Below are positions 179 through 39,216 of a stretch of DNA of 39,216 nucleotides, piece after piece (the first letter of the stretch is position 1; the number at the start of each line of letters is the position of its first letter). A model generated the notes under the pieces. The model searched no databases and was not told where the DNA came from. It saw only the letters and a list, made by a program, of their open reading frames with translations. The stretch comes from an uncultured Mycoplasmatota bacterium (GTDB lineage Bacteria > Bacillota_I > Bacilli_A > RF39 > UBA660): contig CAMNSB010000005.1 of the NCBI GenBank assembly GCA_946554325.1, positions 1 through 39,216 on the forward strand, read 5' to 3'. The translations under genes and the position numbers were made by a program.

Positions 179-3100
179 ATGCTTGGAAAGGATAAAAATA
201 TTCTGATTTTAACAATTTTATGTATTGCGTTTTTACTAATAATAGGTGGAGTTAGTTATGCTTTTTTATCTCAGGTCTTTTTTAGTGAACAAAAACTAGA
301 AACTATTGTTGGAACCCTTGCTATCGAATATAAAGATAAAAAAGGACTTCATTTAGATGGTATTTATCCAATGAGTGATGAAAAAGGTATGATGACTAGT
401 TCTTATGAGTTTAGTGTAGAAAATACAGGAGATGTGAAAGCCTTGTATGATATTTCTTTAGAAGAAGATAAAAGTACCATGAATCATTCTTACTTAAAAT
501 ACTCCCTAAAAAGAAATAATGAAGAATGGAGTGAACCTAAAGTATTAGATAGTTTGAAATTAAAAGAACAAATAGAATTAGATGTAGGTGCAAAGGATAA
601 CTATGAACTTAAAATGTGGATGGATGAGAAAGTGGGAAATGAAGGGAAAAACAAAGTCTTCAAAGCAAGAGTAGTAATCTCTAGTGTTCAAAGTAATGCA
701 AGTAGCAAAGATGTAACCCCTCCAGTCATCAAGTTAAAAGGAAGTTTATCTGAAAGTATTGAACAAAATAAAGAATATATTGATTTAGGAGTAGAAAGTA
801 TCGTTGACGATAAAGATACTTTAAATAAAGAAGATATAAAAGTAACTTATGAATATTATGATGGAGAAAATACCAAAGAAGTAGAGAACATTGATACCTC
901 CAAACTAGGAGTATACTATATTACTTATACCATTTCTGATAAAAGTGGAAATATAGGAAAGATTATTCGAAGTGTCAATATCTATAAGAAGAATACAATC
1001 CCACCAGTGATTAGATTAAATGGTAATAACTTAATAGCCATAAAAAGAGGAGAAGCATATTCAGAACTTGGAGCCAGTGCCAGTAGTGGAGAAGCTAATC
1101 TAACTAATAGAGTAGTAACAGTTGGAAAAGTAAATACAAATAAGTCTGGAAGTTATGAGATTAAGTATTTAATCACGGATAATGATGGAAATACAGCAAG
1201 TATCGTAAGAATAGTTAATGTCATTCATATTACGAGTGATGTAAAGACAGATATCAAACTAGATTTACCCAATAAACCAACAGACAAAGTCAAACTAGAA
1301 GGAGAAAACCTAGGAGATATTACTTATACTAGTAGTGATCCTGATATTGTAACAGTAGATGAGAATGGTAATGTAACAGGTAAAAATCCTGGAACAGCTA
1401 CAATAACCATAACTACCAGTACAGGACATAAGGAAACAATTATAATCACGGTAACAAAAACAGTAAATATCACCTATGAAAAAAGTACAGGGATTAGTAG
1501 TATCAGTAAAACAAGTGATACATGTGAAATTACAGAAAAAAATGGTAGTTGTCATGTTACTTTACCAAACATAGAAGGTTCAAAAGGATATACAGTTAGT
1601 GGTTGGTATGAAGGGGAAAGTAAAGTTGGAAATGCAAATGATTCTGTTACAGTAATAAGTAATAAAACATATACAGCAAAGGCTAATGCTAAAACCTATA
1701 CAATTGTTTACCATAGTAATGGTGGAAGTGGAAGTATGGCAAATACTACAGCAACAACAGGAAAAAATGTTTCTATTTCAGGTAATTCATTTACAAAAGA
1801 GGGATACAGTTTTGTAGGATGGACCACCAATAGTAATGGAGAAGATGATGGATATAACTGGACTGGTTTTAATGGAACATGGAACTTTGATAATGGTGAT
1901 AAAGGAATCACAGAAAACAAATTGAATCTATATGCCAGATGGAATATCAATCAATATAATGTTACTTATGACTATGCAACAAATGGAGGAAGTAGTGCTA
2001 CTAAAACTAGTGCTAAGGTAGGCTATAATAGTGCGATAGACTTAACGCCAAGTGCTACAAAAAGTGGATGGACCTTTGTAGGGTGGAATACGAATAAAGA
2101 TGCAACCAGTGCTTTAAGTAGTTTAACAATGAAGACAAGTAATGTTACTTTATATGCTATTTTTAGGAAAGAGGCCATTACTAGAACAGTAAACTTTAAT
2201 GCCAATGGAAATACCATTAGTGCCACAAGTAAAAGTTGTACGATAGCAGCAGTTTATAATAATGCAACACAAGAAGCTAATTGTTCTGTTACAACACCAA
2301 CAATCACAGCACCTACTAACACACCTAGAGTGATAGGATATCATACTTCGTCTACTGCAACATCTTCTCTTGTTGGAAGTAATGCTAATTTAGTAGTAAC
2401 TTCTGAAATAAATGGAAAGAAGTATTTTGCTATTACAACCAAAGATGCGATAAAAAGGAATATTACTTATACGAAACAAGGAACAGGAGTAACCGCTATT
2501 GGAAAAACAAATGATTCTTGTACGATAAATGCAACTTATAATGGTGCATCACAAGGAACTACTTGTACAGTAACAGCACCCTCTATAACAGTATCAAGCG
2601 GTTATACAGCAGTAGGATGGAATACCTCATCTACTGCTACTAATGGAACAGCAGCAAATGGAGTAATCACATTAGATAGAGATCAAGAGTATTATTCGAT
2701 TAGCTATAAAAATGCCATTACCAGAACAGTAACTTATACCAAGGGAACAGGGGTAAGTGCTATTGGTAAGACAAATGACTCCTGTACCATAGCAGCAGTC
2801 TATAATAATGCTACCCAAGGGACAAGTTGTAATGTCACATTACCATCTATCACAGCAAGTAAAGGATATACAGTGGATGGATGGTATCAAAATACAACAA
2901 AAAGTGCAGTAGGAGCAAGTATTAGTTTAAGTAGTAATGCTTCCTATGAAGCAAGAGCTACAGCCAATACTTATACAATTAGTTATAATGCAAACGGTGG
3001 AAGTGGAACAATGGGTAATACTACAGCAACCACAGGGAAGAATGTTTCTATATCAGGAAACTCATTCACAAAAGAAGGTTATACATTTGTAGGATGGACT

Positions 3101-4993
3101 ACGAATAGTAATGGAGCAGATGATGGATATAACTGGACAAACTGGAGTGGAACATGGAATTATGATAACGGACAATATGGAATTTCAAGTAATAAATTAA
3201 CACTATATGCCAGATGGAGTATTAATTCTTATGATGTTACTTATAACTATTCTAATAACGGAGGAAGTAGTGCTACTAAAACTAGTGCTAAAGTAAACTA
3301 TAATAGTGCTATAGACTTAACACCAACTGCTACGAAGAGTGGATGGACCTTTGTAGGATGGAATACCAATAAAGATGCCACAAGTGCATTAAGCAGTCTT
3401 ACCATGAAAACAAGTAATGTTACTTTATATGCTATCTTTCGAAAAGAGGCAAGAGTGATAACAATGAAATTCTATAAAAATGGAGCTAGTACTCAAACAA
3501 ATGAAAGTGGAACAGCCGTAGGAGATAATTATGTTACTAGAAGTTGTACTATATTAGCAGTCTACAATAATACTACACAATCAAGTAGTTGCCATATTAC
3601 TTCACCAGTGATAGTTGCAAGTAGTAACACCCCAACTGTTATTGGTTATAGTGCAAGTGCTTCAAATCATTCAAATATTTGGTCTCCAAATACTTCTAAA
3701 AGTGTGACTACTAGTGATGAACTTTTTGCACAGACAAAGAAAGATGGATTTTCGAGAAGTGTTTCTTATTATGCGTGGGAAGGAGTAGATGATCACGGAG
3801 ATGGTGGTACAGGTGGCAACTCCAAGCCTTTTAATATCAGTTCTTGCAACATTGCAACTGTTTATAATGGAGCAAGTCAAGCAACGGGTTGTGATGTAAC
3901 TTTAATAACAGCTCAAGCAAAGACTGGGTATAAGGATGCCAAATGGTATGTAAATATAAATGGAACAGGAACTCCATATTTATCAGGAAGTAGACTTACT
4001 TTAAATGGAGAAATCAGTGTTCTTTTTGGAATAGCAAAGAGAAATTTTACCTGTGCAAAAGCAGGAGAGACTACCACTTATGGAAAAAGAGAATGGTATA
4101 CAGTAGCAAATGATGGAACAAATTGCACTTTGGCACTAAATGCTCTTTCTACTTCTACAGGAACTTATGCAGAGGCAACAACAAAATTAACTTCAGAATA
4201 CTTCGTAGATGATCCACAAGAATCCACTTTATTAAATGAAAAGAATGCAGGACTTACAACAGTACTTGGAACATATACAGCAGGAACTGGAATTCCAAGT
4301 GGTACTACTGGAGTAATCTGGACAGGTGCTAGTAGTGCAGTAGGAGTCAATAGGACATTCCCATATTATTCAAATAAAACAGCAGGTTTATACTATAGTA
4401 CTAGACACGTAACGGATAGCAATACTACAGGGTCATTATTATATTCTAATTTTGTAACTGGATATAATACCTTATCCACCTCAACATGTAGTTCGGTAAG
4501 TGGTTCTAATTGCGTGATAAATAATGGAAAAGTGACCACTTATACTGTTAGTAATCATGGCTCAGAAAGTTGGACAACTTGGCAGATAGCAGATACTAAT
4601 AGCAATAAAAAATTCACAATAAATCGTGAAAAAGCAATAGGATCTTCACCACATGTTTTTAATACCCTAGGACAATACTCTTTATACTTGTATGATTGTG
4701 GTGGTACAAAACACAACAATGTAAGCTATAGCATAATAGCCAGAAATGGCTCATCAGTAACACATAACAACTATTTTACATCCCCTACCTCTACGTCAAC
4801 TATTTCTGCGATTAATAAGCACTATTGGAGGCAGGCTGGTGTAAGTGCAGGAGCAACAACAACAGTAACCAACGGAACACAAAGAACATACAATACAGGA
4901 ACGGATGCCTCTTGCATCCCAACATATACTACAGCATTCTCAAATGCCACTTATACAATTAATTATCGTCTTTATATAAGAGTAAAAATATGA
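179..4993 (+). CDS. Large secreted repeat surface protein: SipW/TasA-like N-terminus, Ig-like (DUF5011-like and BIG2-like) domains, InlB B-type repeats and Cys-paired repeats
   Basis: 1604-aa ORF; N-terminal ILILTILCIAFLLIIGGVSYAFLS signal; 'ENTGD' TasA/camelysin-like segment; DxTPPVIxLxG repeats; VTVDENGNVTGKNPGTATITI Ig2 motif; repeated YTIxYxxNGGSG...FxGWTTNxNG...LYARW. Confidence 0.8.
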   Translation: MLGKDKNILILTILCIAFLLIIGGVSYAFLSQVFFSEQKLETIVGTLAIEYKDKKGLHLDGIYPMSDEKGMMTSSYEFSVENTGDVKALYDISLEEDKSTMNHSYLKYSLKRNNEEWSEPKVLDSLKLKEQIELDVGAKDNYELKMWMDEKVGNEGKNKVFKARVVISSVQSNASSKDVTPPVIKLKGSLSESIEQNKEYIDLGVESIVDDKDTLNKEDIKVTYEYYDGENTKEVENIDTSKLGVYYITYTISDKSGNIGKIIRSVNIYKKNTIPPVIRLNGNNLIAIKRGEAYSELGASASSGEANLTNRVVTVGKVNTNKSGSYEIKYLITDNDGNTASIVRIVNVIHITSDVKTDIKLDLPNKPTDKVKLEGENLGDITYTSSDPDIVTVDENGNVTGKNPGTATITITTSTGHKETIIITVTKTVNITYEKSTGISSISKTSDTCEITEKNGSCHVTLPNIEGSKGYTVSGWYEGESKVGNANDSVTVISNKTYTAKANAKTYTIVYHSNGGSGSMANTTATTGKNVSISGNSFTKEGYSFVGWTTNSNGEDDGYNWTGFNGTWNFDNGDKGITENKLNLYARWNINQYNVTYDYATNGGSSATKTSAKVGYNSAIDLTPSATKSGWTFVGWNTNKDATSALSSLTMKTSNVTLYAIFRKEAITRTVNFNANGNTISATSKSCTIAAVYNNATQEANCSVTTPTITAPTNTPRVIGYHTSSTATSSLVGSNANLVVTSEINGKKYFAITTKDAIKRNITYTKQGTGVTAIGKTNDSCTINATYNGASQGTTCTVTAPSITVSSGYTAVGWNTSSTATNGTAANGVITLDRDQEYYSISYKNAITRTVTYTKGTGVSAIGKTNDSCTIAAVYNNATQGTSCNVTLPSITASKGYTVDGWYQNTTKSAVGASISLSSNASYEARATANTYTISYNANGGSGTMGNTTATTGKNVSISGNSFTKEGYTFVGWTTNSNGADDGYNWTNWSGTWNYDNGQYGISSNKLTLYARWSINSYDVTYNYSNNGGSSATKTSAKVNYNSAIDLTPTATKSGWTFVGWNTNKDATSALSSLTMKTSNVTLYAIFRKEARVITMKFYKNGASTQTNESGTAVGDNYVTRSCTILAVYNNTTQSSSCHITSPVIVASSNTPTVIGYSASASNHSNIWSPNTSKSVTTSDELFAQTKKDGFSRSVSYYAWEGVDDHGDGGTGGNSKPFNISSCNIATVYNGASQATGCDVTLITAQAKTGYKDAKWYVNINGTGTPYLSGSRLTLNGEISVLFGIAKRNFTCAKAGETTTYGKREWYTVANDGTNCTLALNALSTSTGTYAEATTKLTSEYFVDDPQESTLLNEKNAGLTTVLGTYTAGTGIPSGTTGVIWTGASSAVGVNRTFPYYSNKTAGLYYSTRHVTDSNTTGSLLYSNFVTGYNTLSTSTCSSVSGSNCVINNGKVTTYTVSNHGSESWTTWQIADTNSNKKFTINREKAIGSSPHVFNTLGQYSLYLYDCGGTKHNNVSYSIIARNGSSVTHNNYFTSPTSTSTISAINKHYWRQAGVSAGATTTVTNGTQRTYNTGTDASCIPTYTTAFSNATYTINYRLYIRVKI
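1694..2176 (+). repeat. InlB-B-type repeat block, copy 1
   Basis: 483 nt encoding TYTIVYHSNGGSGSM...LYAIFRKEA; gapless match in length to the copy at 2969-3451. Confidence 0.75.
2969..3451 (+). repeat. InlB-B-type repeat block, copy 2
   Basis: 483 nt encoding TYTISYNANGGSGTM...LYAIFRKEA; 1275 nt (425 codons) downstream of copy 1. Confidence 0.75.
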
Positions 4994-5020
4994 TAAAGTA
5001 CAATAAGGTTGGTGATATTT

Positions 5021-5854
5021 ATGAAACAAAAGAAAATAATAATACTTATTGCTACCATATTTCTATTTATCTTCGCAATGGTTATAATTGCTAATGATAT
5101 AGAAAACAGTAAAAAAGAAGAAAAAGAAGTAGAAACAGGAATGAAAAAGCTAGAAAAAAAGTTTAAACGCCGTGAAAATATGCTAATCTATGTAACAGAT
5201 GATAGTTGTGAATTATGTAAAGAAACTGACAAAATGATAGATTTTTATGAAAAAGCATATAATTTAGAATTTTATAGAACGAATAAAGAAGGACTAACAA
5301 ATAATGATTTAAAAGAATACTTTGGATTAGAAGAAGCTGCCATAGAACTACCTGCTGTAGTCTATATTCGTGATGGTATGTTAAAAGGAATAGATAACAA
5401 GATCTTAACAGAAGACTATTTTAGAGACTATCTAGTAGAATATGAATTTCTAGATAAAAAATATTTAGAAACAGATTATAGAATTACATATGATCAATTT
5501 ATGGAAAAATATAAAACAGATGAAAAACAAATCATATTTTTCTATAATTATGGAACCAATATATATTACAATGGTAAGAAAAAGAAGAATAAAATAAAAT
5601 ATGCAAACCGTGAAAAAGTAAGAGAAGAACTAGTAAAATTATCGAAAAATCATAACTTTAATTATAAAGTAGTCTTTTTCTCTAGTGAAGGTAGTGACAA
5701 AATATATCAAGAAGTTTTAAAAAGTACAGGGAAAAAAGAATTAGGAGGCTCATTTATTGTACTAACGCAAAATAGTCAAGTCACCGATTATTTAGAAGTA
5801 AAAGCGTTAAATTCTATTTCTCCATTTCTAGAAAAAAATAATATTTATGAATAA
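5021..5854 (+). CDS. Membrane-anchored thioredoxin-like protein
   Basis: N-terminal TM (IIILIATIFLFIFAMVIIA) then MLIYVTDDSCELCKETDKMIDFYEK with CxxC; start taken at ATG 5021 after AAGGTTGGTGA rather than TTG 5009. Confidence 0.65.
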   Translation: MKQKKIIILIATIFLFIFAMVIIANDIENSKKEEKEVETGMKKLEKKFKRRENMLIYVTDDSCELCKETDKMIDFYEKAYNLEFYRTNKEGLTNNDLKEYFGLEEAAIELPAVVYIRDGMLKGIDNKILTEDYFRDYLVEYEFLDKKYLETDYRITYDQFMEKYKTDEKQIIFFYNYGTNIYYNGKKKKNKIKYANREKVREELVKLSKNHNFNYKVVFFSSEGSDKIYQEVLKSTGKKELGGSFIVLTQNSQVTDYLEVKALNSISPFLEKNNIYE

Positions 5855-7911: not shown

Positions 7912-7960
7912 AAAAGGACTAAGTAGAGATAAAACATTTCACTGAGTCCTTTTCTTTTTA
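7911..7960 (+). terminator. Rho-independent terminator after ligA
   Basis: AAAAGGACTAAGT...ACTGAGTCCTTTT stem followed by TTCTTTTT. Confidence 0.75.
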
Positions 7961-8004
7961 TATATTTCGACATAGTTTTCTTTCTATATTCGTTAAAATG
8001 ATAC

Positions 8005-8157
8005 TCATAAAGGATGCTACTTTATGAAAAGAATAGATTTTTTCTTTTACTCATATTCTTTTCTTTTCTATGACTATTTTTTTGACTATGATTATAAGTA
8101 AGTCTTATTTTGTCAGGGTAAAAGTACAAGCATTTCTTCTTGACGAATATATGACTA
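8005..8157 (+). repeat. Composite intergenic element, copy A (dyad plus four TTGACTA-like heptamers)
   Basis: TCATAAAG-GATGCTA-CTTTATGA at 8005-8027; heptamers ATGACTA 8070, TTGACTA 8082, TTGACGA 8140, ATGACTA 8151; same spacing as copy at 39026-39180. Confidence 0.7.
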
Positions 8158-8193
8158 ATAATAAAAGAAATATTTCCAGATAGTTAACAAAAA

Positions 8194-8330
8194 TCACTCA
8201 AAAACCCTTCCTTTTCCTTGTAAACCAGCATTTTTACACTCTTCCAAAAACGTCTTTTTATCAACAATATAGGACTCATATTTAAGCTTTCCACCTCTAA
8301 CTTTATCTGCAAAAGGAAACATCATCGAAC
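8194..8330 (-). pseudogene. Possible C-terminal remnant of an unidentified gene
   Basis: Minus-strand reading MMFPFADKVRGGKLKYESYIVDKKTFLEECKNAGLQGKGRVFE* has ordinary protein composition, but the upstream part runs into the promoter of the capsule operon. Confidence 0.25.
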
Positions 8331-8338
8331 AAAATTTC

Positions 8339-8366
8339 TTGACATTTTGAAAAAATGTGATATAAT
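8339..8366 (+). promoter_or_regulatory. Consensus promoter of the polysaccharide locus
   Basis: TTGACA (8339-8344), 16-nt spacer, TATAAT (8361-8366). Confidence 0.85.
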
Positions 8367-8395
8367 ATGTAAAAACAAAAAGGGGGATGAAATTG

Positions 8396-9082
8396 ATGGA
8401 AGAAATCAATTTAAAGGAGTTATGGCATTATTTTATGTCGAAAAGTTATATTGCAATTGCTGCAATGATTATCTGTATATTAGTAGGAAACATTTATCTA
8501 TTCTGTTTCCAAACACCACTTTATAAAAGTACAACATCATTAGTATTAGTAAATGAAGAAAGAAGTGCTGCAAGTATTACACAAAGTGATATTACACTAA
8601 ATAACAACTTAGTAACGACATATAGTGAAATTATCAAAAGTAGAAATGTCCTATCACAAGTGGCAGAAAATCTAGAACTAGATGAAAGTGTTGAAAACTT
8701 ATCACGTTCTATTAGTGTATATTCAGTAACAGATACACAAATTATTAAAGTAGATGTAAGTCGTGAATCAAATGAAGAAGCAAGAGATATTGCGAATGAA
8801 TTAGCAGATGTATTTTCAAAAGAAATCAGAAGTATTTATAGAATTCAAAATATCTCAGTAGTAGATGAAGCGACATTAGCAACTAGTCCATATAATATTA
8901 GCATTATAAAACAAAATGCAATTTATAGTATTGTAGGAATGCTAATCGGAATGGGAATTATTTTTGTAATATTCTATTTCGATACTTCAATCAAAGATGT
9001 AAAAACAGTAGAAGAAAAATTAGATCTAACAGTGTTAGGCGTAGTTCCTAAGGTAGGTGATAAACATGGGTCGAAAAAATAA
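8396..9082 (+). CDS. Wzz/YveK-type capsular polysaccharide chain-length/kinase-modulator protein
   Basis: Two TM helices flanking an extracellular domain (YKSTTSLVLVNEE...; IVGMLIGMGIIFVIFYFDTSIKDVKTVEEKLDLTVLGVVP); start at ATG 8396 fits AGGGGG. Confidence 0.9.
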   Translation: MEEINLKELWHYFMSKSYIAIAAMIICILVGNIYLFCFQTPLYKSTTSLVLVNEERSAASITQSDITLNNNLVTTYSEIIKSRNVLSQVAENLELDESVENLSRSISVYSVTDTQIIKVDVSRESNEEARDIANELADVFSKEIRSIYRIQNISVVDEATLATSPYNISIIKQNAIYSIVGMLIGMGIIFVIFYFDTSIKDVKTVEEKLDLTVLGVVPKVGDKHGSKK

Positions 9083-10283
9083 AAATAAATACAAAAACAA
9101 GAAAAAAGAAGTAACCACAGTAGTAAAGGATAAGCAACCTATAACAAGTGAAATAATGAAACAACCAACACCACCAATAGTAAAAACAGTGGAGCAAGTT
9201 GTAAAGCCTGTTGAACAGCCTGTAAAACCAGTAGAACCTATTGTAAAAAAACAAGAAGAAATCGAAATAATCGAAGTAATCGGAGAAGAAAAAGAAAAAA
9301 AGGGAAGTGTTGAAATGCAGGAGAAAGTAGTAGAACAACAAGCAAAAAGCCCAGTGACATATCAATCAGTAAATAACCAAATACCAAATCAACAAGTAAA
9401 ACCAGTACAACAAGTACCACAACCAGTAAATAACCAAATACCAAGTCAACAAGTAAAACCAGTACAACAAGTACCACAACCAGTAAAAAAAGAAGAACCA
9501 ATACTAGTACAGCCTTTAGTTTATCAACAAGTAGAGGCGACAGTACCAAAAGTACAACAAGTAACAGAAATAAAAAAGGCACCAATCTATAATCCAGAAG
9601 TAAAAAAAGTAGATTTGCTAATAACAAAAAATCCTAAATCATCATTTAGTGAAGCAATCAAATCAGTAAGAACAAATTTACAATTTGCAAGTGTAGATAA
9701 AGAAATTAAAATCATTCTAGTATCATCCCCTGAACCAGGAGATGGAAAAAGCTTAATTTCTTCCAATTTAGCAGGAGCTTATGCTCAAGAAAATAAAAAA
9801 GTTCTAATTATAGATTGTGATTTAAGAAAAGGTCGTCAAGCAGAAATATTTGGAATAAAAAAATATCCAACAACAGGATATACAAACTTAATTTTAAACT
9901 ATAGAAGAAATATAACAACCTTAGAAAACTATATCAATAAAACAGGTATTGCCAATGTAGATTTAATTCCAAATGGACCAACGCCACCAAATCCAATTGA
10001 ACTTCTATCATCACCTAAGAATAAAGAACTATTAGATGATTTAAAAACAAGATATGACGTAATTATTCTAGATTGTCCACCAGTTCTTGGGCTTAGTGAT
10101 GCACTAGTCATGACAAAATATAGTGATGCAAACATTATTGTAATATCAAAAGGAAAAACAAAAGTAGAATCCCTTGCAGAAGTAAAGAAAAGCTTTGAAA
10201 AAGTAAATAGTACCATCACAGGAGTCATTACCAATAAAGCAAAACGTAAACATAATAGTTATTATGGATACTATGGTGAATAA
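9057..10283 (+). CDS. CpsD/YwqD-type bacterial tyrosine kinase with long Pro/Gln/Val-rich N-terminal extension
   Basis: Walker A SSPEPGDGKSLISSNLA, Walker A' VLIIDCDLRKGR, VIILDCPPVLGLSDA, C-terminal SYYGYYGE tyrosine cluster; ATG 9066 is an alternative start. Confidence 0.92.
   Translation: MINMGRKNKNKYKNKKKEVTTVVKDKQPITSEIMKQPTPPIVKTVEQVVKPVEQPVKPVEPIVKKQEEIEIIEVIGEEKEKKGSVEMQEKVVEQQAKSPVTYQSVNNQIPNQQVKPVQQVPQPVNNQIPSQQVKPVQQVPQPVKKEEPILVQPLVYQQVEATVPKVQQVTEIKKAPIYNPEVKKVDLLITKNPKSSFSEAIKSVRTNLQFASVDKEIKIILVSSPEPGDGKSLISSNLAGAYAQENKKVLIIDCDLRKGRQAEIFGIKKYPTTGYTNLILNYRRNITTLENYINKTGIANVDLIPNGPTPPNPIELLSSPKNKELLDDLKTRYDVIILDCPPVLGLSDALVMTKYSDANIIVISKGKTKVESLAEVKKSFEKVNSTITGVITNKAKRKHNSYYGYYGE
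9369..9482 (+). repeat. 57-bp tandem repeat, two copies, inside the kinase gene
   Basis: Unit GTAAATAACCAAATACCAAATCAACAAGTAAAACCAGTACAACAAGTACCACAACCA at 9369-9425 and 9426-9482 with one mismatch; encodes VNNQIP(N/S)QQVKPVQQVPQP. Confidence 0.95.
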
Positions 10284-10285
10284 AA

Positions 10286-11011
10286 ATGAAAGATCTACAT
10301 TCTCACATTTTAATGGGAATAGATGATGGTAGCAAAGAACAAAAAGAAAGCTTAGAAATACTAAAAAAAGCCGAAAAAGAGGGAATTACAGACATTATGC
10401 TAACACCACACTATATTAAAAATACAAATTGGTCAGAAAATAATCTAGGAAAACAAAATAAATTAGCAGAATTAAAAGAAGAAATAATAAAAAACAATAT
10501 CAAAATAAACCTATATTTAGGAAACGAAGTCTATATTGATGAGGAAATTTTAAAACTAATCAAAGAAGGAGAAATAGCCACATTAAATGGCACTAGATAT
10601 ATCCTAATAGAACTTCCACTAATGAATGAACTGCAAAATACAAAAGAAATCTTATTTAACTTAGTAACCAACAATTATATTCCTATCATTGCCCATCCAG
10701 AACGATATCACTATATACAAACAAATCCAGAAAAAATAGAAGAGTATTTAGAAATGGGAGCATTACTCCAAGGAAATTATCAAAGTCTATTAGGAAAGTA
10801 CGGACAAAAAGCAAAAACAACATTAAAAATTTTATTAAAAAATAATAAAATTCAATTTCTAGCAAGTGATATTCATAGAAAGACGGATGAATATTACTTA
10901 AAGAAAACAAATAAAAAATTAGAAAAATTAATAAAGAATAAAAAGACGGTTGAAGACTTGTTAGATGGAAATTTTGAAAAAGTAATAAACAATGAAATAA
11001 TTTCTATCTAA
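10286..11011 (+). CDS. CpsB/YwqE-type PHP-family protein tyrosine phosphatase
   Basis: DLHSHILMGIDDGSKEQKESLEILK, TPHY, GNEVYID, IAHPERY, ASDIH. Confidence 0.92.
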   Translation: MKDLHSHILMGIDDGSKEQKESLEILKKAEKEGITDIMLTPHYIKNTNWSENNLGKQNKLAELKEEIIKNNIKINLYLGNEVYIDEEILKLIKEGEIATLNGTRYILIELPLMNELQNTKEILFNLVTNNYIPIIAHPERYHYIQTNPEKIEEYLEMGALLQGNYQSLLGKYGQKAKTTLKILLKNNKIQFLASDIHRKTDEYYLKKTNKKLEKLIKNKKTVEDLLDGNFEKVINNEIISI

Positions 11012-11035
11012 AGTATATATTTAGGGGGTTTATAT

Positions 11036-11716
11036 ATGTACAAGTACTTTAAAAGGACAATGGATATTGTCGTTAGTTTTATATTACTTATTTTTTGTAG
11101 TATTCCAATGATACTAGTTGCAATTGCAATCAAATTAGAAAGTAAGGGATCTGTCCTATTTAAACAAATAAGAACAGGTAAAGATGGAGAAGAATTTATG
11201 CTATATAAATTTAGAAGTATGACGCAGGATAATAATGTTTTAAACTTTAAAGAAGAAAATAAAATTACGAAAGTGGGAAACTTTATTCGTAAAACTTCTC
11301 TAGATGAATTACCACAACTAATAAATATCATAAAAGGGGATATGAGTTTAATAGGACCACGTCCATGGATTGTAGAATACGCACAAAATTTTACTAATTA
11401 CCAAAAGAAAAGATTAAAAGTTCGTCCTGGAATTACAGGACTTGCACAAGCAACTGGAAGAAATAATCTATCAATTTTTGAAAAAATAGAGTATGATATA
11501 GAGTATGTAGAACATTATTCCTTAATGGAAGATTTAAAAGTAATTGGAATGACAATGAAAACAGTATTATCTAAAGAAGGGGCAGACCTTTCCAAAGCAG
11601 GAGTACATGAAGAAATCGTTGCATTAAGAGAACATTGTTTATTTTCTACGAAAGATATGACAGGAGATTTTGAAGAAACAATTTACGAATCAGATAGCAA
11701 TTCTGTAATAGCATAA
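11036..11716 (+). CDS. Undecaprenyl-phosphate sugar phosphotransferase (initiating transferase)
   Basis: YKYFKRTMDIVVSF...KQIRTGKDGEEFMLYKFRSM...KTSLDELPQLINIIKGDMSLIGPRP...RPGITGLAQATGRN. Confidence 0.95.
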   Translation: MYKYFKRTMDIVVSFILLIFCSIPMILVAIAIKLESKGSVLFKQIRTGKDGEEFMLYKFRSMTQDNNVLNFKEENKITKVGNFIRKTSLDELPQLINIIKGDMSLIGPRPWIVEYAQNFTNYQKKRLKVRPGITGLAQATGRNNLSIFEKIEYDIEYVEHYSLMEDLKVIGMTMKTVLSKEGADLSKAGVHEEIVALREHCLFSTKDMTGDFEETIYESDSNSVIA

Positions 11717-11744
11717 AGAAAAAGAATAAAAAGGGTGTATTGAT

Positions 11745-12863
11745 ATGAAAAAAGTACTATTTACAGCAACCGTGGATTCTCATATATTAGCATTCCACGT
11801 GCCATATTTAAAATATTTTAAAGAACAAGGATACGAGGTTCATGTAGCTACAAATGGCAATGAAATAATTCCGTATTGTGATCAAAAACATATCATATCA
11901 TTTGAAAGAAGTCCTTATAAAATAAATAATTTAAGGGCTATTTCGCAGTTAAAGAAGATAATTGAAAAGGAAAATTTTAATATTATTCACACCCATACCC
12001 CAATGGGGAGTGTTGTAACACGACTAGCAGCACGAAAAATGCAAAAAAAAAGAAAAACAAGAGTCATTTATACTGCCCATGGTTTTCATTTTTATAAAGG
12101 TGCTAGTAAATTAAATTGGCTACTATTCTATCCTGTTGAAAAGTACTTGTCAAAATATACAGACACCTTAATTTTAATCAATAAAGAAGATTATAACCTT
12201 GCAAAGAAAAAATTTAAAAAGTGTAAGGATATAAAATATGTTCCAGGTGTTGGAATCAGTACCAAGAAGTTTGATATCAAAATAACGAAACAGCAAAAAA
12301 GTAATCTAAGAAAGGCACTAGGAATTGAAGAAACCGACTTTGTGATGATTTATCCAGCAGAGCTATCTAAAAGAAAAAATCAAGAGTGGTTAATTCATTC
12401 GTTGAAAGACTTTTTACACCAACAGGAAGACATCAAATTATTATTACCAGGAAGAGATAGCTTAAATGGAAAGATTGAACATTTAATAAAAGAAGAAAAA
12501 TTAGAAAACCAAGTTCTCCTACTAGGGTTTAGAAAAGATATTCCCCAACTTCTAAAGATATCAGATATCTCTATCTCAACTAGTAAACAAGAAGGACTTC
12601 CCGTTAATATCATGGAGGCAATGTATGTAGGAGTACCTTCTGTTGTAACTGATTGTAGAGGAAATAGAGATCTAATTGAAAATAATATCAATGGCTATAT
12701 TGTAGACCAACTAGATAAAAAACAGTTTGTTGAAAAAATCTCTATTTTATATCATAATAAAGAAAAAAGAGATGAACTACAAAAAGCAAGTAAAGAAAAA
12801 ATAAAGGAGTATCTATTAGATAACACAATGGTATATATGGAAAAAATATATAGAGGTGAATAG
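11745..12863 (+). CDS. Glycosyltransferase family 4 (EpsD-like)
   Basis: GT-B features: IIHTHTPMGSVVTRLAA...YTAHGFHFYKGAS...ISTSKQEGLPVNIMEAMYVGVPSVVTDCRGNRDLI. Confidence 0.9.
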   Translation: MKKVLFTATVDSHILAFHVPYLKYFKEQGYEVHVATNGNEIIPYCDQKHIISFERSPYKINNLRAISQLKKIIEKENFNIIHTHTPMGSVVTRLAARKMQKKRKTRVIYTAHGFHFYKGASKLNWLLFYPVEKYLSKYTDTLILINKEDYNLAKKKFKKCKDIKYVPGVGISTKKFDIKITKQQKSNLRKALGIEETDFVMIYPAELSKRKNQEWLIHSLKDFLHQQEDIKLLLPGRDSLNGKIEHLIKEEKLENQVLLLGFRKDIPQLLKISDISISTSKQEGLPVNIMEAMYVGVPSVVTDCRGNRDLIENNINGYIVDQLDKKQFVEKISILYHNKEKRDELQKASKEKIKEYLLDNTMVYMEKIYRGE

Positions 12864-12867
12864 CATT

Positions 12868-14001
12868 ATGAGAAGAAAAATAAAGAAAATAACTAAAATG
12901 TTTCTCTGCTTTTTAAAATATATGTACTATTTGGCTTTCTGTAAAATAACAAAAGTAAATAATGATTCTATTTGGTTAATTTCAGAAAGAGGAAATGATG
13001 CAAGAGATAATTCCTATCATTTTTATAGATATATCAAAGAAAATCATCAAGATATTAATATAAAATATGTGATAGATAAAAAATCCAGTGATGCTAAGAA
13101 GATAAAGAAAGAAGATATCGTTGAATATGGAAGTAGAAAACATTATATTTACTTTTTAACAGCATCTAAATTAATTAGTACACATATTATGGGCTATTCT
13201 CCTGATATGAGTATCTTCTGGCGATTAGATAAATTAGGATGGTTAAAACTAAAAGGAAAGAAAATCATGTTACAACATGGTATTACTCAAAACTATTTAG
13301 CATTTATGTCTAAGAAAATTGCCAAACTAGATTTATTTATCTGTGGTGCTTATAAAGAATATGAGTATATTTTAAAAGAGTATGGGTATACAGAAAAAGA
13401 AGTAAAATATACAGGTTTTGCTAGATATGATAACCTAAAAAGTAAGGAAAAAAGACAGATTCTGGTCATGCCTACTTTTAGAAAATGGTTAAACTATACA
13501 GATGATTTTACAAGCTCTGAATACTTTAAAAAGTGGAATAGTTTTTTAAATCAAAAAGAATTATTAGCCTACTTAGAATCAAAGAATTTAGAATTAATTT
13601 TTTATCCTCATTATGAAATACAAAAATATCTATCACAGTTTAAAACTCCATCTAAGAGAATTATATTGGCCAGTTTTAAGGATTATGATGTACAAAAATT
13701 ACTCATTGAATCTAGTGTTTTAATCACCGATTACTCTAGTGTTTTCTTTGATTTTGCTTATATGAAAAAACCAGTGATCTACTATCAGTTTGACCTAAAA
13801 AAATTTAGAAAAGATCATTATCAACAAGGATTCTTCGATTATGATAAAATGGGTTTTGGTCCAGTATGTACAACAGAAAATAAGTTAATAAGTGCCTTAA
13901 AAAATATAGAAAATGATGATAATAGAAATGTAGATGAATTTTTTAAATATCATGATTTTCATAACTGTGAGAGGATTTATCAAGAAATAATAAAGTTATA
14001 A
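12868..14001 (+). CDS. CDP-glycerol:poly(glycerophosphate) glycerophosphotransferase family protein
   Basis: WLISERGNDARDNSYHFYRYI...KIMLQHGITQNYL...LITDYSSVFFDFAYMKKPVIYYQFD; ATG 12868 preferred over ATG-less upstream start. Confidence 0.9.
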   Translation: MRRKIKKITKMFLCFLKYMYYLAFCKITKVNNDSIWLISERGNDARDNSYHFYRYIKENHQDINIKYVIDKKSSDAKKIKKEDIVEYGSRKHYIYFLTASKLISTHIMGYSPDMSIFWRLDKLGWLKLKGKKIMLQHGITQNYLAFMSKKIAKLDLFICGAYKEYEYILKEYGYTEKEVKYTGFARYDNLKSKEKRQILVMPTFRKWLNYTDDFTSSEYFKKWNSFLNQKELLAYLESKNLELIFYPHYEIQKYLSQFKTPSKRIILASFKDYDVQKLLIESSVLITDYSSVFFDFAYMKKPVIYYQFDLKKFRKDHYQQGFFDYDKMGFGPVCTTENKLISALKNIENDDNRNVDEFFKYHDFHNCERIYQEIIKL

Positions 14002-14020
14002 AAGAAAGGAAGAGAGGAAT

Positions 14021-15184
14021 ATGTCAATTATCTGCCTACTACTATTTATTGCATTTCCCATCATTGGGCTTCCTGTATACTTGGGATGCTATGTTTTTCA
14101 TTCAAACAAAAAAGGAATTCTATATTCTCTTTTAATAGGAGTGACACTTGGGTTTATTACATACTATTTTATACCACCACATGATTATGATTTATACCGC
14201 CATCAATTTATTGCTAGATATATTCATAATTTACCATTTGACCGTTTTTTAGCTTATTCCAAAGTAACAGAGTTAGAGTTTTTACCTCTTCTATATAGTT
14301 ACTTCATCTCATTTACTGAAAATTACAACTTATTACAATTCTTTATCGTCTCCCTAGGATATACATTAATGTTTTATATGATGTATGACTATCGGAAAAA
14401 GACAACGATATCAAATTTAAGTTTTATTTTAGTAGTTATCTTTAATATCTTTGGTTTTAATGCTCTATATTTTATTAGTGGACTCTATTACTATATTGCC
14501 ATCATTCTCTTCTCCTTTGCATTTTACAATGAATATACCAAAAAGGGGAATAAGTTCTTATCTTACTTTCTTTATGGATTAGTACTACTGATTCACGACT
14601 CCATGTTTTTCCCCGTTGTCATTTTATTGATATTTAAACTATTTAACAATAAACTAAATGTAAGATCACTAGGATTATGTATTTTAATCTTTGGTTTATC
14701 TTATTATGTAATTAGTGTTTTAAGTAGTGTAATAAACTTTGAATTATTTACTAAAGTAATCAATTTGTATAACCATTATATTAGTAATGACTACCGAATG
14801 AGAAAATTTTATAGTGGAACAATCTTTATTATTGAAATTACGAAGTTACTGTTAATACTGGCAACTATCTTTATGACCAAAAATAAAAAACCACTCAGCA
14901 AAGAAAATGGATTTATTATCCTATTAGCAGTATCTACTTTACTCATGATGCCAAAATCACTTGTTATGATTCGTTTTATCATGGGAGTTCAGTTAATTGG
15001 AATTGTGCCTTTAATGAATTATTATCAAAAGAATAAACTAACAGATATTAAATTGATTATGATCGCCATTTTATGTGCTTTAGGAATTCTTTACACACTT
15101 TATTTTTATAGAGTATTTAAAGATGAAAACTTCGGAAATTTAAAAATTTCAGATAGTATTGTGACGATATGGAAGAAGGAATAA
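14021..15184 (+). CDS. EpsG/Wzy-like polysaccharide polymerase
   Basis: Polytopic membrane protein with PPHDYDLYRHQFIARYIHNLPFDRFLAY near N-terminus, in polysaccharide operon. Confidence 0.75.
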   Translation: MSIICLLLFIAFPIIGLPVYLGCYVFHSNKKGILYSLLIGVTLGFITYYFIPPHDYDLYRHQFIARYIHNLPFDRFLAYSKVTELEFLPLLYSYFISFTENYNLLQFFIVSLGYTLMFYMMYDYRKKTTISNLSFILVVIFNIFGFNALYFISGLYYYIAIILFSFAFYNEYTKKGNKFLSYFLYGLVLLIHDSMFFPVVILLIFKLFNNKLNVRSLGLCILIFGLSYYVISVLSSVINFELFTKVINLYNHYISNDYRMRKFYSGTIFIIEITKLLLILATIFMTKNKKPLSKENGFIILLAVSTLLMMPKSLVMIRFIMGVQLIGIVPLMNYYQKNKLTDIKLIMIAILCALGILYTLYFYRVFKDENFGNLKISDSIVTIWKKE

Positions 15185-15186
15185 CG

Positions 15187-16269
15187 ATGAAAATATTATA
15201 TGTTAATAATACAATGAATATAGGAGGGATTGAATCCTTCTTAATGAATATTTTAAGAAATATAGAAAAAGAGAAATATGAAATTATATTTCTAACATAT
15301 AATGAGGAAACGTTTGATTATGAAGAAGAAATTAAGAAATTAGGAAGTAGAATCATTAGAATATCAAATCCTAATGATATATCGATTCTAGAACATATCA
15401 AACAGTTAACCAATGTGATGAAAGAAGAAAAACCAGATGTAGTACATTGTCATACCCATTTTAATAGTGCCTATGTGATGCTTGCCGCATATCGTGCCCA
15501 TATTAAGAAAAGAATTTGTCACTCACATTCTACTTATGCACTACTGGAAACGAGTAAAGTAAAAAAGGTAAAATGGATTATTTCAAGAATGATGATGAGA
15601 CTATTTGCAACAGATCAGATTGCCTGTAGTAAAGAAGCAGGAGTGGCACTCTATGGAAATACCAGTTTTAAAAAAATTACCAATGGAATTGATATGAAAA
15701 ATTATCAATATGATAAAAAGATACGAGCAAAGTATCGAAAAGAATGGAAAATAGATGATAAGACAGTGGTAATTGGTCATGTAGGAAGATTAGACTATCC
15801 CAAAAATCATCAGTTTTTAATAAAGATATATAAAGAGTACGCAAAGGAAAATCCCAATAGTTTATTAGTGCTAGTGGGGGATGGGCCACTAAAAAAAGAA
15901 ATAAAAAAGATTGTAAAAAAAAATAAGTTACAAGAAAAAGTAATGCTGCTTGGAAATCGAAATGATGTAAGTAAACTATTAAATGCCTTTGACCTATTTC
16001 TATTTCCATCCATTTATGAGGGACTACCAATGTCATTAGTAGAAGTACAAGCAAATGGTATTCCTGCACTCATTAGTGATAGTATCTCAAGTGAGATTAA
16101 ACTAACCCCATGTATTGAGTTTTTATCAATTAAGCAAAGTGAAAAAACTTGGGCTAAGAAACTAGCAAGTACCAGTGTAAAACGCATAGATACGAAAAAA
16201 ATAATGAAAGATAGTGAATATTCAATAGAAAGTACCATTCATGAATTATTAAAAATATATAAGAAATAG
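15187..16269 (+). CDS. Glycosyltransferase family 1/4 (EpsF-like)
   Basis: VNNTMNIGGIESFLMNILR...VVHCHTHFNSAYVM...GHVGRLDYPKNHQFLIKIY...FPSIYEGLPMSLVEVQANGIPALIS. Confidence 0.92.
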   Translation: MKILYVNNTMNIGGIESFLMNILRNIEKEKYEIIFLTYNEETFDYEEEIKKLGSRIIRISNPNDISILEHIKQLTNVMKEEKPDVVHCHTHFNSAYVMLAAYRAHIKKRICHSHSTYALLETSKVKKVKWIISRMMMRLFATDQIACSKEAGVALYGNTSFKKITNGIDMKNYQYDKKIRAKYRKEWKIDDKTVVIGHVGRLDYPKNHQFLIKIYKEYAKENPNSLLVLVGDGPLKKEIKKIVKKNKLQEKVMLLGNRNDVSKLLNAFDLFLFPSIYEGLPMSLVEVQANGIPALISDSISSEIKLTPCIEFLSIKQSEKTWAKKLASTSVKRIDTKKIMKDSEYSIESTIHELLKIYKK

Positions 16270-16298
16270 TAAAGAGCATCGGAAGGAGATGAGTCAAT

Positions 16299-17114
16299 AT
16301 GAAGTACTTAAAGCTAGAAGAAATACAACAAGAAGAAAAAAATATATTAAAAGAGACAATAGCTTTTTTAACAAAAAACAATATTCCTTATGCAATGTGT
16401 GGTGGAACCCTATTAGGTGCAGTAAGACATCAAGGCTTTATACCATGGGATGATGATATTGATATCTTTGTACCAAGGCCTGATTATGAAAAACTGATAT
16501 CTTTGTTAAAGAAGAATCAGAGGGTAGCAGGTTATAAAGCAACAGGGAGTATGTTAAAAAATAGCTATCACCCATTTATCAAAATAACAAATGAGAAAAT
16601 ATTGACTTATAATGACCGAATGGGCAATAATAAACAAATGAATTTATGGATTGACATTTTCCCAATTGATGGCTTACCAAAAGAAAAAGAGAAAACAGAA
16701 AAATTATATCAAAAAGTAAAATATGTGAGAAATCTATATATGTTGAAAACTTATAAATATGGCTACCTATTAAAAACAAATAATATCATAAAAGGAATAG
16801 TAAAAGGAATAGTAAAGACATTCTTAGTATTACTTCCATATAGTATTCTCTCCAAAAGATTAGATGATCTTTCTAAAACATATTCTTATGAGGAAGAAGA
16901 ATATGTTGGAGGTGTTTTATGGGGATATGGACCAAAAGAGAAAATGCCTAAGAAAGATGTTTTGTGGAAAGAATTTGATTTTTGTGATTTAAAGGTGATG
17001 GGACTAAAAAACTATCATCAATACCTAACCAATTTATACGGAGATTATATGAAATTGCCTCCAGAAGAAAAAAGAAAAACCCATGAGTTTATTGCTTGGA
17101 GAAATGAAAGATGA
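16299..17114 (+). CDS. LicD family phosphotransferase
   Basis: IPYAMCGGTLLGAVRHQGFIPWDDDIDIFVPRPDYEKL...NLWIDIFPIDGLP. Confidence 0.95.
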   Translation: MKYLKLEEIQQEEKNILKETIAFLTKNNIPYAMCGGTLLGAVRHQGFIPWDDDIDIFVPRPDYEKLISLLKKNQRVAGYKATGSMLKNSYHPFIKITNEKILTYNDRMGNNKQMNLWIDIFPIDGLPKEKEKTEKLYQKVKYVRNLYMLKTYKYGYLLKTNNIIKGIVKGIVKTFLVLLPYSILSKRLDDLSKTYSYEEEEYVGGVLWGYGPKEKMPKKDVLWKEFDFCDLKVMGLKNYHQYLTNLYGDYMKLPPEEKRKTHEFIAWRNER

Positions 17115-18613
17115 AAAGAAAAAATAAAAATATACCATTACGAAATGTAGTATCAAGTGTACTCTTGCAACTAGTCACAATAATTAGTGGATTTATAATT
17201 CCCAAAATAATTCTTTCTGTCTTTTCTTCTGAGGTAAATGGACTAGTATCATCCCTCAATCAATTTCTAAATTATATTAGCTTATTAGAGGGAGGTCTAG
17301 CAGGTGTGGTGATGGCTAGACTGTATCAACCACTAGCACAAAACGATCATAATAAAATGAGTTCCATTGTAAAGACCACCAAGAACTTTTATCATCGTAT
17401 TTCCATCATCTTTATCATTTACACGATTTTCTTATCCATTATCTATCCACTCGTTGTAAAAACTTCATTTTCTTTCTCCTATGTATTTACACTCTCTATT
17501 ATCTTATCGATAACACTATTTGTACAATACAATTTTTCTCTGGCATTAAGACTATTATTACAAGCAGATAAAAAGGTATATATTGTCTCATTTACTCAGA
17601 CAGTATTAACAATATGTAATATTATTCTATTTTACATATTATCAAAGTTTTTTCCAAATATTCACTTTTTAAAGTTAGTCTCTGCAATTATCTTCTTACT
17701 ACAACCAATCATCTATAACATCTATATTAATAAACATTATAAGCTAGATAAAGAAGCAAAAGAAGATGATAGTCTAACCAAAAGTAGATGGGATGGCCTT
17801 GCCATTAATGTCGCAGCTTTCATTCATAATAGTACAGATATTGCCATATTAACTATTTTTACCAATCTAAAGATTGTATCAGTATATTCCATCTATTCAT
17901 TAGTAACAATGGGACTAAAAAAAGTAATCACTTCTATTTCAGCAGGAATTAACCCAAGTATAGGACACTTATATGCAAAAGGAGATAAAAAAGCATTAAA
18001 TGAAAAATTTGAACTATATGAATTTATTATTTTCTTTATTACCTTTTTTATATTTACAGTAGGAGGCTTACTAATTACAGATTTTGTACTACTTTATACA
18101 AGAAATATAACAGATATTAACTATAATGAACCAATATTTGGTATTCTAATTATTTTAGCAGAAATGATCTTTTGTTTAAGGGAACCCTATGTATCTATTG
18201 CATATACTGCCAACAAGTTTAAAGACATGAAAAAAGCCGCTTACTTAGAAGCAATAATAAATATTATAGTATCTATCATTTTAGTAAGAAACTTTGGTCT
18301 TATAGGAGTAGCAGTAGGAACAATATTATCACTATTATATCGAACTTTATATCATGTAGTATATTTAAAAGACCATATTCTAAATCGAAACATCTTAGAA
18401 TTTGTAAAAAAGATACTATTATTTGCAACCCTATCTATGATTGGAATCATAATATGCAACAGGTGTTTTACGAATACGATAAATACAGCACGTGATTTTA
18501 TAAAAAGTGGTATGATATATTCAACAATTATAATAACTTTATATTTAATAGGATGTATGATATTTTATCGCAAAGATTTAGAAGATTGTAAGAAAATGAT
18601 AATAAAAAAATAA
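17111..18613 (+). CDS. Wzx-type polysaccharide flippase (MATE/MVF superfamily)
   Basis: 500-aa polytopic protein, FIIPKIILSVFSSEVNGLVSSLNQFLNYISLLEGGLAGVVMARLYQPL; ATGA overlap with licD-like gene. Confidence 0.88.
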   Translation: MKRKNKNIPLRNVVSSVLLQLVTIISGFIIPKIILSVFSSEVNGLVSSLNQFLNYISLLEGGLAGVVMARLYQPLAQNDHNKMSSIVKTTKNFYHRISIIFIIYTIFLSIIYPLVVKTSFSFSYVFTLSIILSITLFVQYNFSLALRLLLQADKKVYIVSFTQTVLTICNIILFYILSKFFPNIHFLKLVSAIIFLLQPIIYNIYINKHYKLDKEAKEDDSLTKSRWDGLAINVAAFIHNSTDIAILTIFTNLKIVSVYSIYSLVTMGLKKVITSISAGINPSIGHLYAKGDKKALNEKFELYEFIIFFITFFIFTVGGLLITDFVLLYTRNITDINYNEPIFGILIILAEMIFCLREPYVSIAYTANKFKDMKKAAYLEAIINIIVSIILVRNFGLIGVAVGTILSLLYRTLYHVVYLKDHILNRNILEFVKKILLFATLSMIGIIICNRCFTNTINTARDFIKSGMIYSTIIITLYLIGCMIFYRKDLEDCKKMIIKK

Positions 18614-18625
18614 GGAGAAGGTTTT

Positions 18626-20032
18626 ATGTTAAAAAGAATCAATAAAATATTATGTAGTGTAACACTACTAATTACTTTCATATTTTGGATACTACTTGTA
18701 TTACTGGATATTCTACCAACTCTATATCTTGTAGTGTTAAGTATCCTATTGTTTATAATCTGTTTTCTATTTTGTTTATTCGCTGTAAAAGGCAAAAAAA
18801 GCATCCCACTTTTCATAAGTATCTTAATAGAAATACTAATAAATATAGTCCTTTTATTTGCAGGTAGTAAAGTATATGAGACCAATGATTTTCTACACAA
18901 ATTAAGTAAAACCAAACAGGAAGAAATGTATTACTATGTAATAGTAAAAAAAAAGAGCAGTTATAAAAAAATAAAAGATTTAAATAATAAGACTTTAGCA
19001 ACCTATTTTGTAAATGATAATAATAAGGAACAAGTGCTTGAAAAACTAAACGATAAAGTCCAAGTATTAGAAAAGAAATATAATAATCTATCCACACTAG
19101 GAAATGACTTATTACAAAATAAAGTAGATGCGATATTAGTAAATGACTTTAATAAAAATCGTCTAGAAGAAACAAAAGACTTTAAAGAGAAAACAAAAGT
19201 AATTCATACCATAAAAATTCCTCTAAAAAATAAAGTAGAAGTAAAAAACGTAGATATCACAAAAGAACCATTCTCAGTCTACATTAGTGGAATTGATACT
19301 TCTGGACCTATTAATACAGTATCGCGAAGCGATGTAAACATAGTAGTAACAGTAAATCCTAAAACACATGAGATTTTATTAACTAGTATACCAAGAGACT
19401 ATTATGTATCTCTTCATGGAATAGATGGACCAAAAGACAAACTAACCCATGCTGGACTTTATGGAATAAATATGTCAGTAGAGACAATAGAAGATTTACT
19501 AAGTATGGAAATTGACGATTATATTAGAGTAAACTTTGATACATTAGTGAGTGTAGTAGATAAAGTTGGTGGAGTAGATGTCTATTCAGATATGGATTTT
19601 AAAACCTATAAAGGGTATTATTTCAAAAAAGGTTATAATCATTTAGATGGCAAAAAGGCATTAGCATTTTCAAGGGAACGAAAAGTCTTTGCTGAAGGAG
19701 ATAGAAAAAGAGGAGAACATCAAGAAGAAGTCATTCGTGCAATCATTAATAAGATAACTTCTTCTAAAGTCATGCTTACTAATTACTCATCGATTCTAAA
19801 TAGCCTAGAAAATACTTTTGAAACATCGGTATCGACAAGCGAAATAAAAAGTTTTGTCAAAATGCAACTAGAAGAGATGCCAAGTTGGGATATTAAAGCT
19901 CTAAACTTAGATGGAGTAGGAAGTAGTGCCTATACGTATTCCATTCCAAATGAAAATCTCTATGTAATGCTCCCAGATGAAGAAACTGTAAAAAAGGCAA
20001 GTGAGACAATTCAAAATTTAAAAAATAAATAG
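18626..20032 (+). CDS. LytR-CpsA-Psr (LCP) family protein with inserted solute-binding-like domain
   Basis: VYISGIDTSGPINTVSRSDVNIVVTVNPKTHEILLTSIPRDYYV...KLTHAGLYG...YIRVNFDTLVSVVDKVGGVDVYSD...ALAFSRERK; residues ~95-200 read YYYVIVKKKSSYKKIKDLNNKTLATY. Confidence 0.93.
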   Translation: MLKRINKILCSVTLLITFIFWILLVLLDILPTLYLVVLSILLFIICFLFCLFAVKGKKSIPLFISILIEILINIVLLFAGSKVYETNDFLHKLSKTKQEEMYYYVIVKKKSSYKKIKDLNNKTLATYFVNDNNKEQVLEKLNDKVQVLEKKYNNLSTLGNDLLQNKVDAILVNDFNKNRLEETKDFKEKTKVIHTIKIPLKNKVEVKNVDITKEPFSVYISGIDTSGPINTVSRSDVNIVVTVNPKTHEILLTSIPRDYYVSLHGIDGPKDKLTHAGLYGINMSVETIEDLLSMEIDDYIRVNFDTLVSVVDKVGGVDVYSDMDFKTYKGYYFKKGYNHLDGKKALAFSRERKVFAEGDRKRGEHQEEVIRAIINKITSSKVMLTNYSSILNSLENTFETSVSTSEIKSFVKMQLEEMPSWDIKALNLDGVGSSAYTYSIPNENLYVMLPDEETVKKASETIQNLKNK

Positions 20033-20100
20033 TAAAGCAAAAAAAAATTTGTAATTAAAATAATACCTTGATATAATAAAGAAAAGTAAAGGTGATAGTA

Positions 20101-20757
20101 ATGTTTTCATGGAAAAAAGATAAATTAAAAAATGTAGAAACAGAAAATATTAATGAAATAGACTTAGAAACCAAAGAAGAAAAAAAAATATTTAAGATTT
20201 TAAATATACTTTTGATTGTTATATTAGTAGTAGCAACATTAATATCTGTAGATATCATTTTAGTAAGTAAATATCAAAAAGGACCATTTTTTGCCATTCG
20301 TACTAATGTATATAAAGATGGAGGGACCAAAGTATATTATGGTCTTGGATATAAGGTAATTAAATATCATCAAGTAGTAGGAAGAAGAGATTGGCAAGTT
20401 GGATTCTGGACAATGAAATATAATATTAAACCAACTTCTGTATCTACTCTAGATTTAGCATTAGAATTAAGAAACAATCCTAAGAAGTCCTTTGAAAAAT
20501 ATCAGAAAAAATTTCTAAAAGTAGAAGGAAAGATTTATAAAATAAATACGAAGAAAAAAGAATTAACGTTGAGATATTTGGATGAAGATAAGAAATATAG
20601 TTTAGATGTAGTTTGTTCAATGGAAAAAAACAATAAAAAACTAAAGAAGAAAGATAATATTGAAGTAATTGGAACAGTAGATGCTTATACAGTAAGAGAT
20701 AGTAAAGAGAAAGATTCCATTAACACATTAAAAATGACTCATTGCTTTGCAAAATAA
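20101..20757 (+). CDS. Membrane-anchored protein with possible C-terminal OB-fold domain, function unknown
   Basis: Single TM (ILLIVILVVATLISVDIILV); FLKVEGKIYKINTKKKELTLRYLD...IEVIGTVDAYTV resembles OB-fold layout; ATG 20101 after AAAGGTGATAGT. Confidence 0.5.
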   Translation: MFSWKKDKLKNVETENINEIDLETKEEKKIFKILNILLIVILVVATLISVDIILVSKYQKGPFFAIRTNVYKDGGTKVYYGLGYKVIKYHQVVGRRDWQVGFWTMKYNIKPTSVSTLDLALELRNNPKKSFEKYQKKFLKVEGKIYKINTKKKELTLRYLDEDKKYSLDVVCSMEKNNKKLKKKDNIEVIGTVDAYTVRDSKEKDSINTLKMTHCFAK

Positions 20758-38976: not shown

Positions 38977-39003
38977 AATACCAAAAATTCTGCATTCTTT
39001 TTG
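38971..39003 (+). terminator. Rho-independent terminator overlapping the stop codon
   Basis: TGTAGAAT-ACCAAAA-ATTCTGCA followed by TTCTTTTTG. Confidence 0.65.
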
Positions 39004-39025
39004 TATTAAATTAGATAAAATGTGA

Positions 39026-39180: not shown

Positions 39181-39216
39181 TGAATAACAAATAAATTATC
39201 AAATAATTAATCTCTT

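Follow-up and report, generated by a model that had tools for sequence, protein, structure and literature searches.

The window analysed here, a 39,216-nucleotide stretch of DNA from an uncultured Mycoplasmatota bacterium, contains three copies of a dyad in which two 8-bp half-sites enclose a 7-bp spacer. The first copy, TCATAAAG-TAGGCGT-CTTTATGA at positions 123-145, was absent from the original prediction and forms the promoter end of an element that is cut by the contig start. A predicted outward promoter on the plus strand (TTGCAA-N17-TATAAT, 56-84) reads through this dyad, in the ON direction, into the plus-strand gene (179-4993) of a 1604-aa surface protein with Listeria-Bacteroides/InlB-type repeats and Ig-like domains, which is apparently driven through the dyad. 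An ORF of 281 aa (5009-5854), for which no Pfam or NCBIfam match was found, lies between the surface-protein gene and ligA.

The second copy, TCATAAAG-GATGCTA-CTTTATGA at 8005-8027, is the N-end crossover dyad of what we call element A and is followed on the plus strand by four arm-type heptamers, ATGACTA (8070-8076), TTGACTA (8082-8088), TTGACGA (8140-8146) and ATGACTA (8151-8157). The third copy, TCATAAAG-GAAGATA-CTTTATGA at 39027-39049, is the N-end dyad of element B, the body of which (39050-39216, plus strand) extends as far as the contig end and includes heptamers at 39093, 39105, 39163 and 39174. The original prediction had placed the dyad and heptamers of A exactly, and the heptamer spacings of 12, 58 and 11 nt that it had reported for A do recur in B. 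An intrinsic-terminator-like hairpin with a T-run (38970-39026) precedes B, and flanks of a similar terminator type are also seen before several other elements. Downstream of A, and outside the element, a fixed promoter with a 12/12 consensus match (TTGACA-N16-TATAAT, 8339-8366, plus strand) stands before the Wzz/capsule operon; the capsule/exopolysaccharide cluster (Wzz, ATPase, CpsB, sugar transferase, glycosyltransferases and LicD) occupies 8387-20757 of the plus strand, its end being approximate. An Rfam scan of the window detected no RNA family, and none of the window ORFs scanned encodes a recombinase, as had been stated.

Within the window alone the significance of these sites is weak, since the three dyad matches (at most three mismatches) were reached in 4 of 100 shuffles, and 12 loose 19-bp heptamer pairs were found compared with 9.7 expected, which is not significant by itself. 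The exact pattern TCATAAAG-N7-CTTTATGA, however, occurs 26 times in the 1.4-Mb genome (G000), the dyad of element A being one of these copies, against 0 occurrences of the reversed-pattern control, which makes a chance origin untenable. A pattern search of this genome and its relatives gave copies beyond chance with the heptamer geometry kept, rather than chance-level matches with unconserved heptamers. Many contig ends of the 92-contig G000 assembly fall within or next to dyad copies, in a repeat-like manner, and the term dispersed repeat, which had been offered as one alternative, is descriptively true.

Architecture of intact and decayed elements

Intact copies are about 300 bp long and consist of an inverted dyad at either end, two internal pairs of TTGACTA-like heptamers and an outward sigma70-type promoter near one end. 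We refer to the promoter end as P and to the opposite end as N. The inverted dyads of a pair are about 274-289 bp apart in G000 and 238-420 bp apart across six genomes, and bound a short segment like the inverted repeats of an inverton; several Bacilli genomes carry 15-60 dyads each. In other G000 elements, heptamer pair 1 lies at about +60 to +66 and +72 to +78 and pair 2 about 55-70 nt beyond pair 1, and by these positions the G000 elements and those of relatives have direct-repeat arm-type sites near the core, in the manner of arm-binding integrases. Using consensus scoring, the outward promoter score was higher at the P-end than at the N-end in 53 of 62 elements and never lower (p about 1e-10), and the internal promoter, judged by consensus match, reads out of one end. 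An intact copy would thus be laid out as terminator-side flank, dyad, N-end with two arm-site pairs, outward promoter, dyad, leader and surface-protein gene start.

Element A has retained an N-half (8028-8219, plus strand) that is homologous to the elements on contigs C56, C46 and C27. Its alignment with C56 extends past the heptamers as far as about 8219 and breaks down at the -35 region, with no second dyad beyond, and in place of the two ends of an inverton only one is present, the promoter end being missing as well. Its N-side flank (7935-8004, plus strand; alignment scores 86, 82 and 72) is of a type found at the N-end in C56 and at the P-end in C18 (start) and C23. Because A is cut at the -35 box, has lost the second dyad and is followed by the fixed capsule promoter, it is probably locked, and its sequence suggests that it is probably a decayed remnant in the ON orientation. 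Without a promoter end and partner dyad, it would not flip alone, and the capsule operon would use its fixed promoter. Other decayed copies in G000 include an N-half (C3:5121) and the elements on C71 and C75, which have no clear P-dyad. On the minus strand, 8196-8330 reads as MMFPFADKVRGGKLKYESYIVDKKTFLEECKNAGLQGKGRVFE, which may be a gene fragment joined at the break of element A. A lone dyad on contig C6 (37592-37614; L005 1501-1523), situated between a terminator-type flank and a surface-protein gene, resembles a site that has lost its element.

The last 55 bp of element B are identical to C62:1-55 and to the end of C86. B probably runs on into C62 and there acquires its promoter end, a second dyad (spacer TATCTTC) and a surface-protein gene, the C5-C62 join being ambiguous because C86 has the same 55 bases. 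Both element B and the dyad at 123 represent ends of elements that appear to be ON-oriented. A and B are both N-ends, lie in the same orientation and flank the 31-kb capsule region, as would be the case if they were direct-repeat attachment sites between which recombination excised this region. Their spacers, however, differ (GATGCTA versus GAAGATA), the two elements belong to different subfamilies, and B has a partner dyad of its own in prospect past the contig end; we therefore give such an excision hardly any credence.

Spacer identity and element orientation

The spacers vary between elements, and within an element the left spacer was the exact reverse complement of the right in 21 of 24 paired elements in G051, 15 of 15 in G001, 10 of 13 in G146 and 6 of 7 in G147, i.e., in 52 of 59 for the four genomes together, against about one exact match when partners were shuffled within a genome. 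When the spacers were compared in direct orientation, 3-7 of the 7 positions mismatched. Since it is only in inverted orientation that the two spacers agree, recombination between them would flip the segment, with strand exchange taking place within the 7-bp spacers. Some spacers are common to several elements, such as CTGGATA in G001, so that the notion of a private address for each element is only approximate. Matching was weaker in G000, with 3 of 8 automatically paired elements exact and one of the eight pairings spurious; the mismatched spacers may mark locked elements or assembly chimeras. The C46 element of G000 has matched GATGTTA spacers. Mismatched end spacers were seen in the G000 elements at C8:18157, C16:44, C18:10687 and C28:44, those on C8 and C18 being ON and those on C16 and C28 apparently ON, and these four are possibly locked ON, or else assembly chimeras.

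We also compared the orientation of elements relative to their flanks. The elements on C11 and C37 of G051 align plus/plus with 95% identity whereas both flanks align in minus orientation, with breakpoints at the dyads, and one flank matches at 55 of 55 bases, dyad included. A systematic comparison yielded opposite-orientation pairs in G000, G001, G051 and G146, with both flanks swapped in L212/L217. Both orientations relative to the flanks are thus found between paralogous cassettes, the contrasts lying mostly between paralogous loci of assemblies that are nearly all metagenome bins. For a single locus, contig ends provided branch signatures only, with C59 ending exactly at a dyad and C37 of G051 starting with the 55-mer common to C11.

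At the level of sequence, these data establish the anatomy of the elements, the matched inverted spacers, the occurrence of both orientations between similar flanks, the conserved promoter and the surface-gene neighbours. Matched inverted spacers, both orientations and surface genes at either end together argue for invertible promoters, and we consider it very likely that the sites constitute a genome-wide family of invertons for surface-protein phase variation, which a Tn916/lambda-type tyrosine recombinase would flip. A regulator-binding array, proposed earlier as an alternative, would make the dyad and heptamers operators of the surface genes that act without recombination; the intergenic location beside surface and capsule genes and the resemblance of the heptamers to -35 boxes are in line with it, but it leaves unexplained the matched variable spacers, the two orientations between similar flanks and the recombinase nested between dyads that is described below, is strongly disfavoured by them and appears extremely improbable to us. 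Both the regulator array and the excision between A and B were set aside.

A tyrosine recombinase enclosed by dyads

Contig C54 carries a 370-aa tyrosine recombinase (L029:860-1972) bounded by the same dyads and heptamer pairs, one pair of heptamers being placed directly before its start codon and the other directly past its stop codon. The recombinase ORF is the only gene in this element. It contains the Pfam domains PF00589 Phage_integrase (E 2e-27) and PF14659 Phage_int_SAM_3, and the R...HxxR...H...Y residues of tyrosine recombinases (R205, H314, R317, H340, Y350) are invariant in 12 homologs. Its closest solved structure is 6emy (E about 1e-16), the chain of which is labelled 'Int protein' and which we take to be Tn1549 Int. 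The N-terminus consists of a conserved segment of ~65 aa; no Pfam or PDB sequence match to an arm-binding N-terminal domain was obtained for the recombinase, and this domain is known to escape Pfam in some cases (PMC8138268).

Homologs of the recombinase are present in 24 of 145 family genomes. In G000, G001 and G147 it is the only gene within an inverted pair of dyads, and in many of the family members inspected it likewise stands alone between inverted repeats that are themselves (divergent) dyads. A dyad scan also led to four records of other organisms, one of them a cultured Anaerovorax, in which recombinase homologs of about 40-54% identity lie close by, thereby tying the dyad to the enzyme independently. 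G146 and G148 have dyads, and no close recombinase was found in them; a profile search returned distant relatives only. In Anaerovorax sp. IOR16, a cultured Clostridia strain, the homolog is situated between dyads with the inverted-matching spacers ATTTTAC/GTAAAAT (L123, 951-2441), and the right dyad has a second copy elsewhere (C10:687092). At L038 (about 355-1415), inverted dyad-like ends with the spacers TTCGATA/TATCGAA and without heptamers enclose a 307-aa recombinase that lacks the N-terminal segment, perhaps an arm-less form of the same system.

The dyads are strongly supported as core crossover sites. In the proposed mechanism, the 8-bp half-sites would serve as core sites for the C54 recombinase and the heptamers as its arm sites. 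The position of the heptamers and the class of the enzyme support their assignment as putative arm sites, the place of the gene between such dyads supports the C54 recombinase as the candidate flipping enzyme, and the spacer statistics support the view that spacer identity may guide inversion. One may further speculate that, with heptamers before int, the enzyme regulates its own gene. The original prediction of a tyrosine-recombinase attachment site, with inverted cores around a 7-bp overlap and direct-repeat arm sites, is well supported by the recombinase between such dyads; it missed that the site is one end of a two-ended element, of which A is a truncated copy and B a copy continuing past the contig end, and it also missed the inversion, the outward promoter and the adjoining surface-protein genes. 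The inverted ends and matching inverted spacers point to promoter inversion rather than phage-type integration.

Another possibility is that C54 carries a small autonomous transposon, integrase-only, whose ~300-bp copies are MITE-like deletion derivatives moved in trans without promoter switching. The ends and arm pairs common to both, with int placed between the two pairs, the ~26 dispersed dyads, the solo dyad at C6:37592 between terminator and surface gene, as after the departure of an element, and the mismatched spacers in several G000 elements, which resemble Tn916-type coupling sequences, are all compatible with this. It does not, however, fit the inverted matching of spacers within 52 of 59 elements (G051, G001, G146 and G147), the conserved outward promoter facing or turned from surface genes, or the non-random placement upstream of paralogous surface genes, and we regard it as improbable; transposition may nevertheless be part of the answer as the way in which cassettes spread. 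Within the preferred reading of invertible promoters, it is possible, if rather doubtful, that an integrase of the arm-binding, mobile-element class now serves as an antigenic switch across the genome, in which every cassette has core and arm sites and a 7-bp spacer that confines recombination to the two ends of that cassette; the enzyme may in addition spread or remove cassettes, as mobile invertible promoters, with spacer mismatch acting as a natural lock.

Predicted expression states and relation to known switches

Next to the dyads lie genes for paralogous proteins whose N-terminus bears a membrane/signal segment. Elements were called ON when the start codon lies at the P-end and OFF when it lies at the N-end, on the basis of predicted promoters. 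By these calls, about 10 elements are OFF and 2 ON in G001, 9 OFF and 2 ON in G146, and 4 OFF and 1 ON in G147, where the ON element is the one bearing the recombinase. The assigned elements of G000 mostly look ON (C8, C18:10687, C6:4046, B/C62 and the dyad at 123). Each flip of the segment would leave the promoter facing the gene (ON) or pointing in the opposite direction (OFF), and we infer from the sequences that expression follows element orientation.

In Vpma switching of Mycoplasma agalactiae a gene cluster is rearranged, whereas in the present system the promoter cassettes are dispersed, one to each gene. The two systems are alike in the site-specific switching of multiple surface-protein genes, most of which are silent at once (PMC2268961). 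It is already known from Mpi and RecV that one enzyme can serve invertible promoters at several loci (PMC5903667); for Bacteroides fragilis, that paper cites at least thirteen Mpi-controlled invertible promoter regions, seven polysaccharide loci among them. The present elements resemble the Mpi system in having many dispersed short invertible promoters before surface loci and one recombinase in trans, but Mpi is a serine recombinase, and here we find a candidate tyrosine recombinase, core-dyad ends and internal arm-site pairs. RecV of Clostridioides difficile is likewise a tyrosine recombinase that inverts several unlinked regulatory segments; neither arrays of arm sites nor 7-bp spacers matched within each element are among its features in the available text of PMC5386303 and PMC5903667, and here, in contrast, the recombinase gene itself lies within one invertible segment.

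Arm-binding tyrosine recombinases have been described chiefly as mobile-element integrases (PMC8138268). Tn916, Tn1549 and lambda Int share with our system the core and direct-repeat arm-type sites, and the catalytic domain best matches Tn1549 Int. They differ in that conjugation and phage genes are absent here, the ends are inverted rather than direct, leading to inversion, and the spacers match within an element; the C54 element, without transfer genes and with inverted ends, is not a Tn916-type conjugative transposon. Gut bacteria commonly carry invertons close to surface genes (PMC11892184); according to that study and the works it cites, inverted repeats there too enclose a promoter in the vicinity of surface genes and invertases, whereas the inverted repeats of our elements are palindromic dyads in their own right and are accompanied by internal arm-type sites. 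PMC11892184 nowhere uses the word Tenericutes, and arm-site cassettes with matched spacers in uncultured Bacilli were not found in the open-access literature searched.

Altogether, the elements point to a large phase-variation system in an uncultured gut-type Bacilli lineage, in which each genome has dozens of promoter cassettes before its surface-protein genes; most of these cassettes look OFF in some species, and most look ON in that of the window. Inversion would thereby be linked to a class of recombinases known mainly from phages and conjugative transposons. A 7-bp spacer of its own for each element is predicted to let one enzyme serve many switches without scrambling the chromosome, and the site motif allows such switches to be read directly from assemblies.
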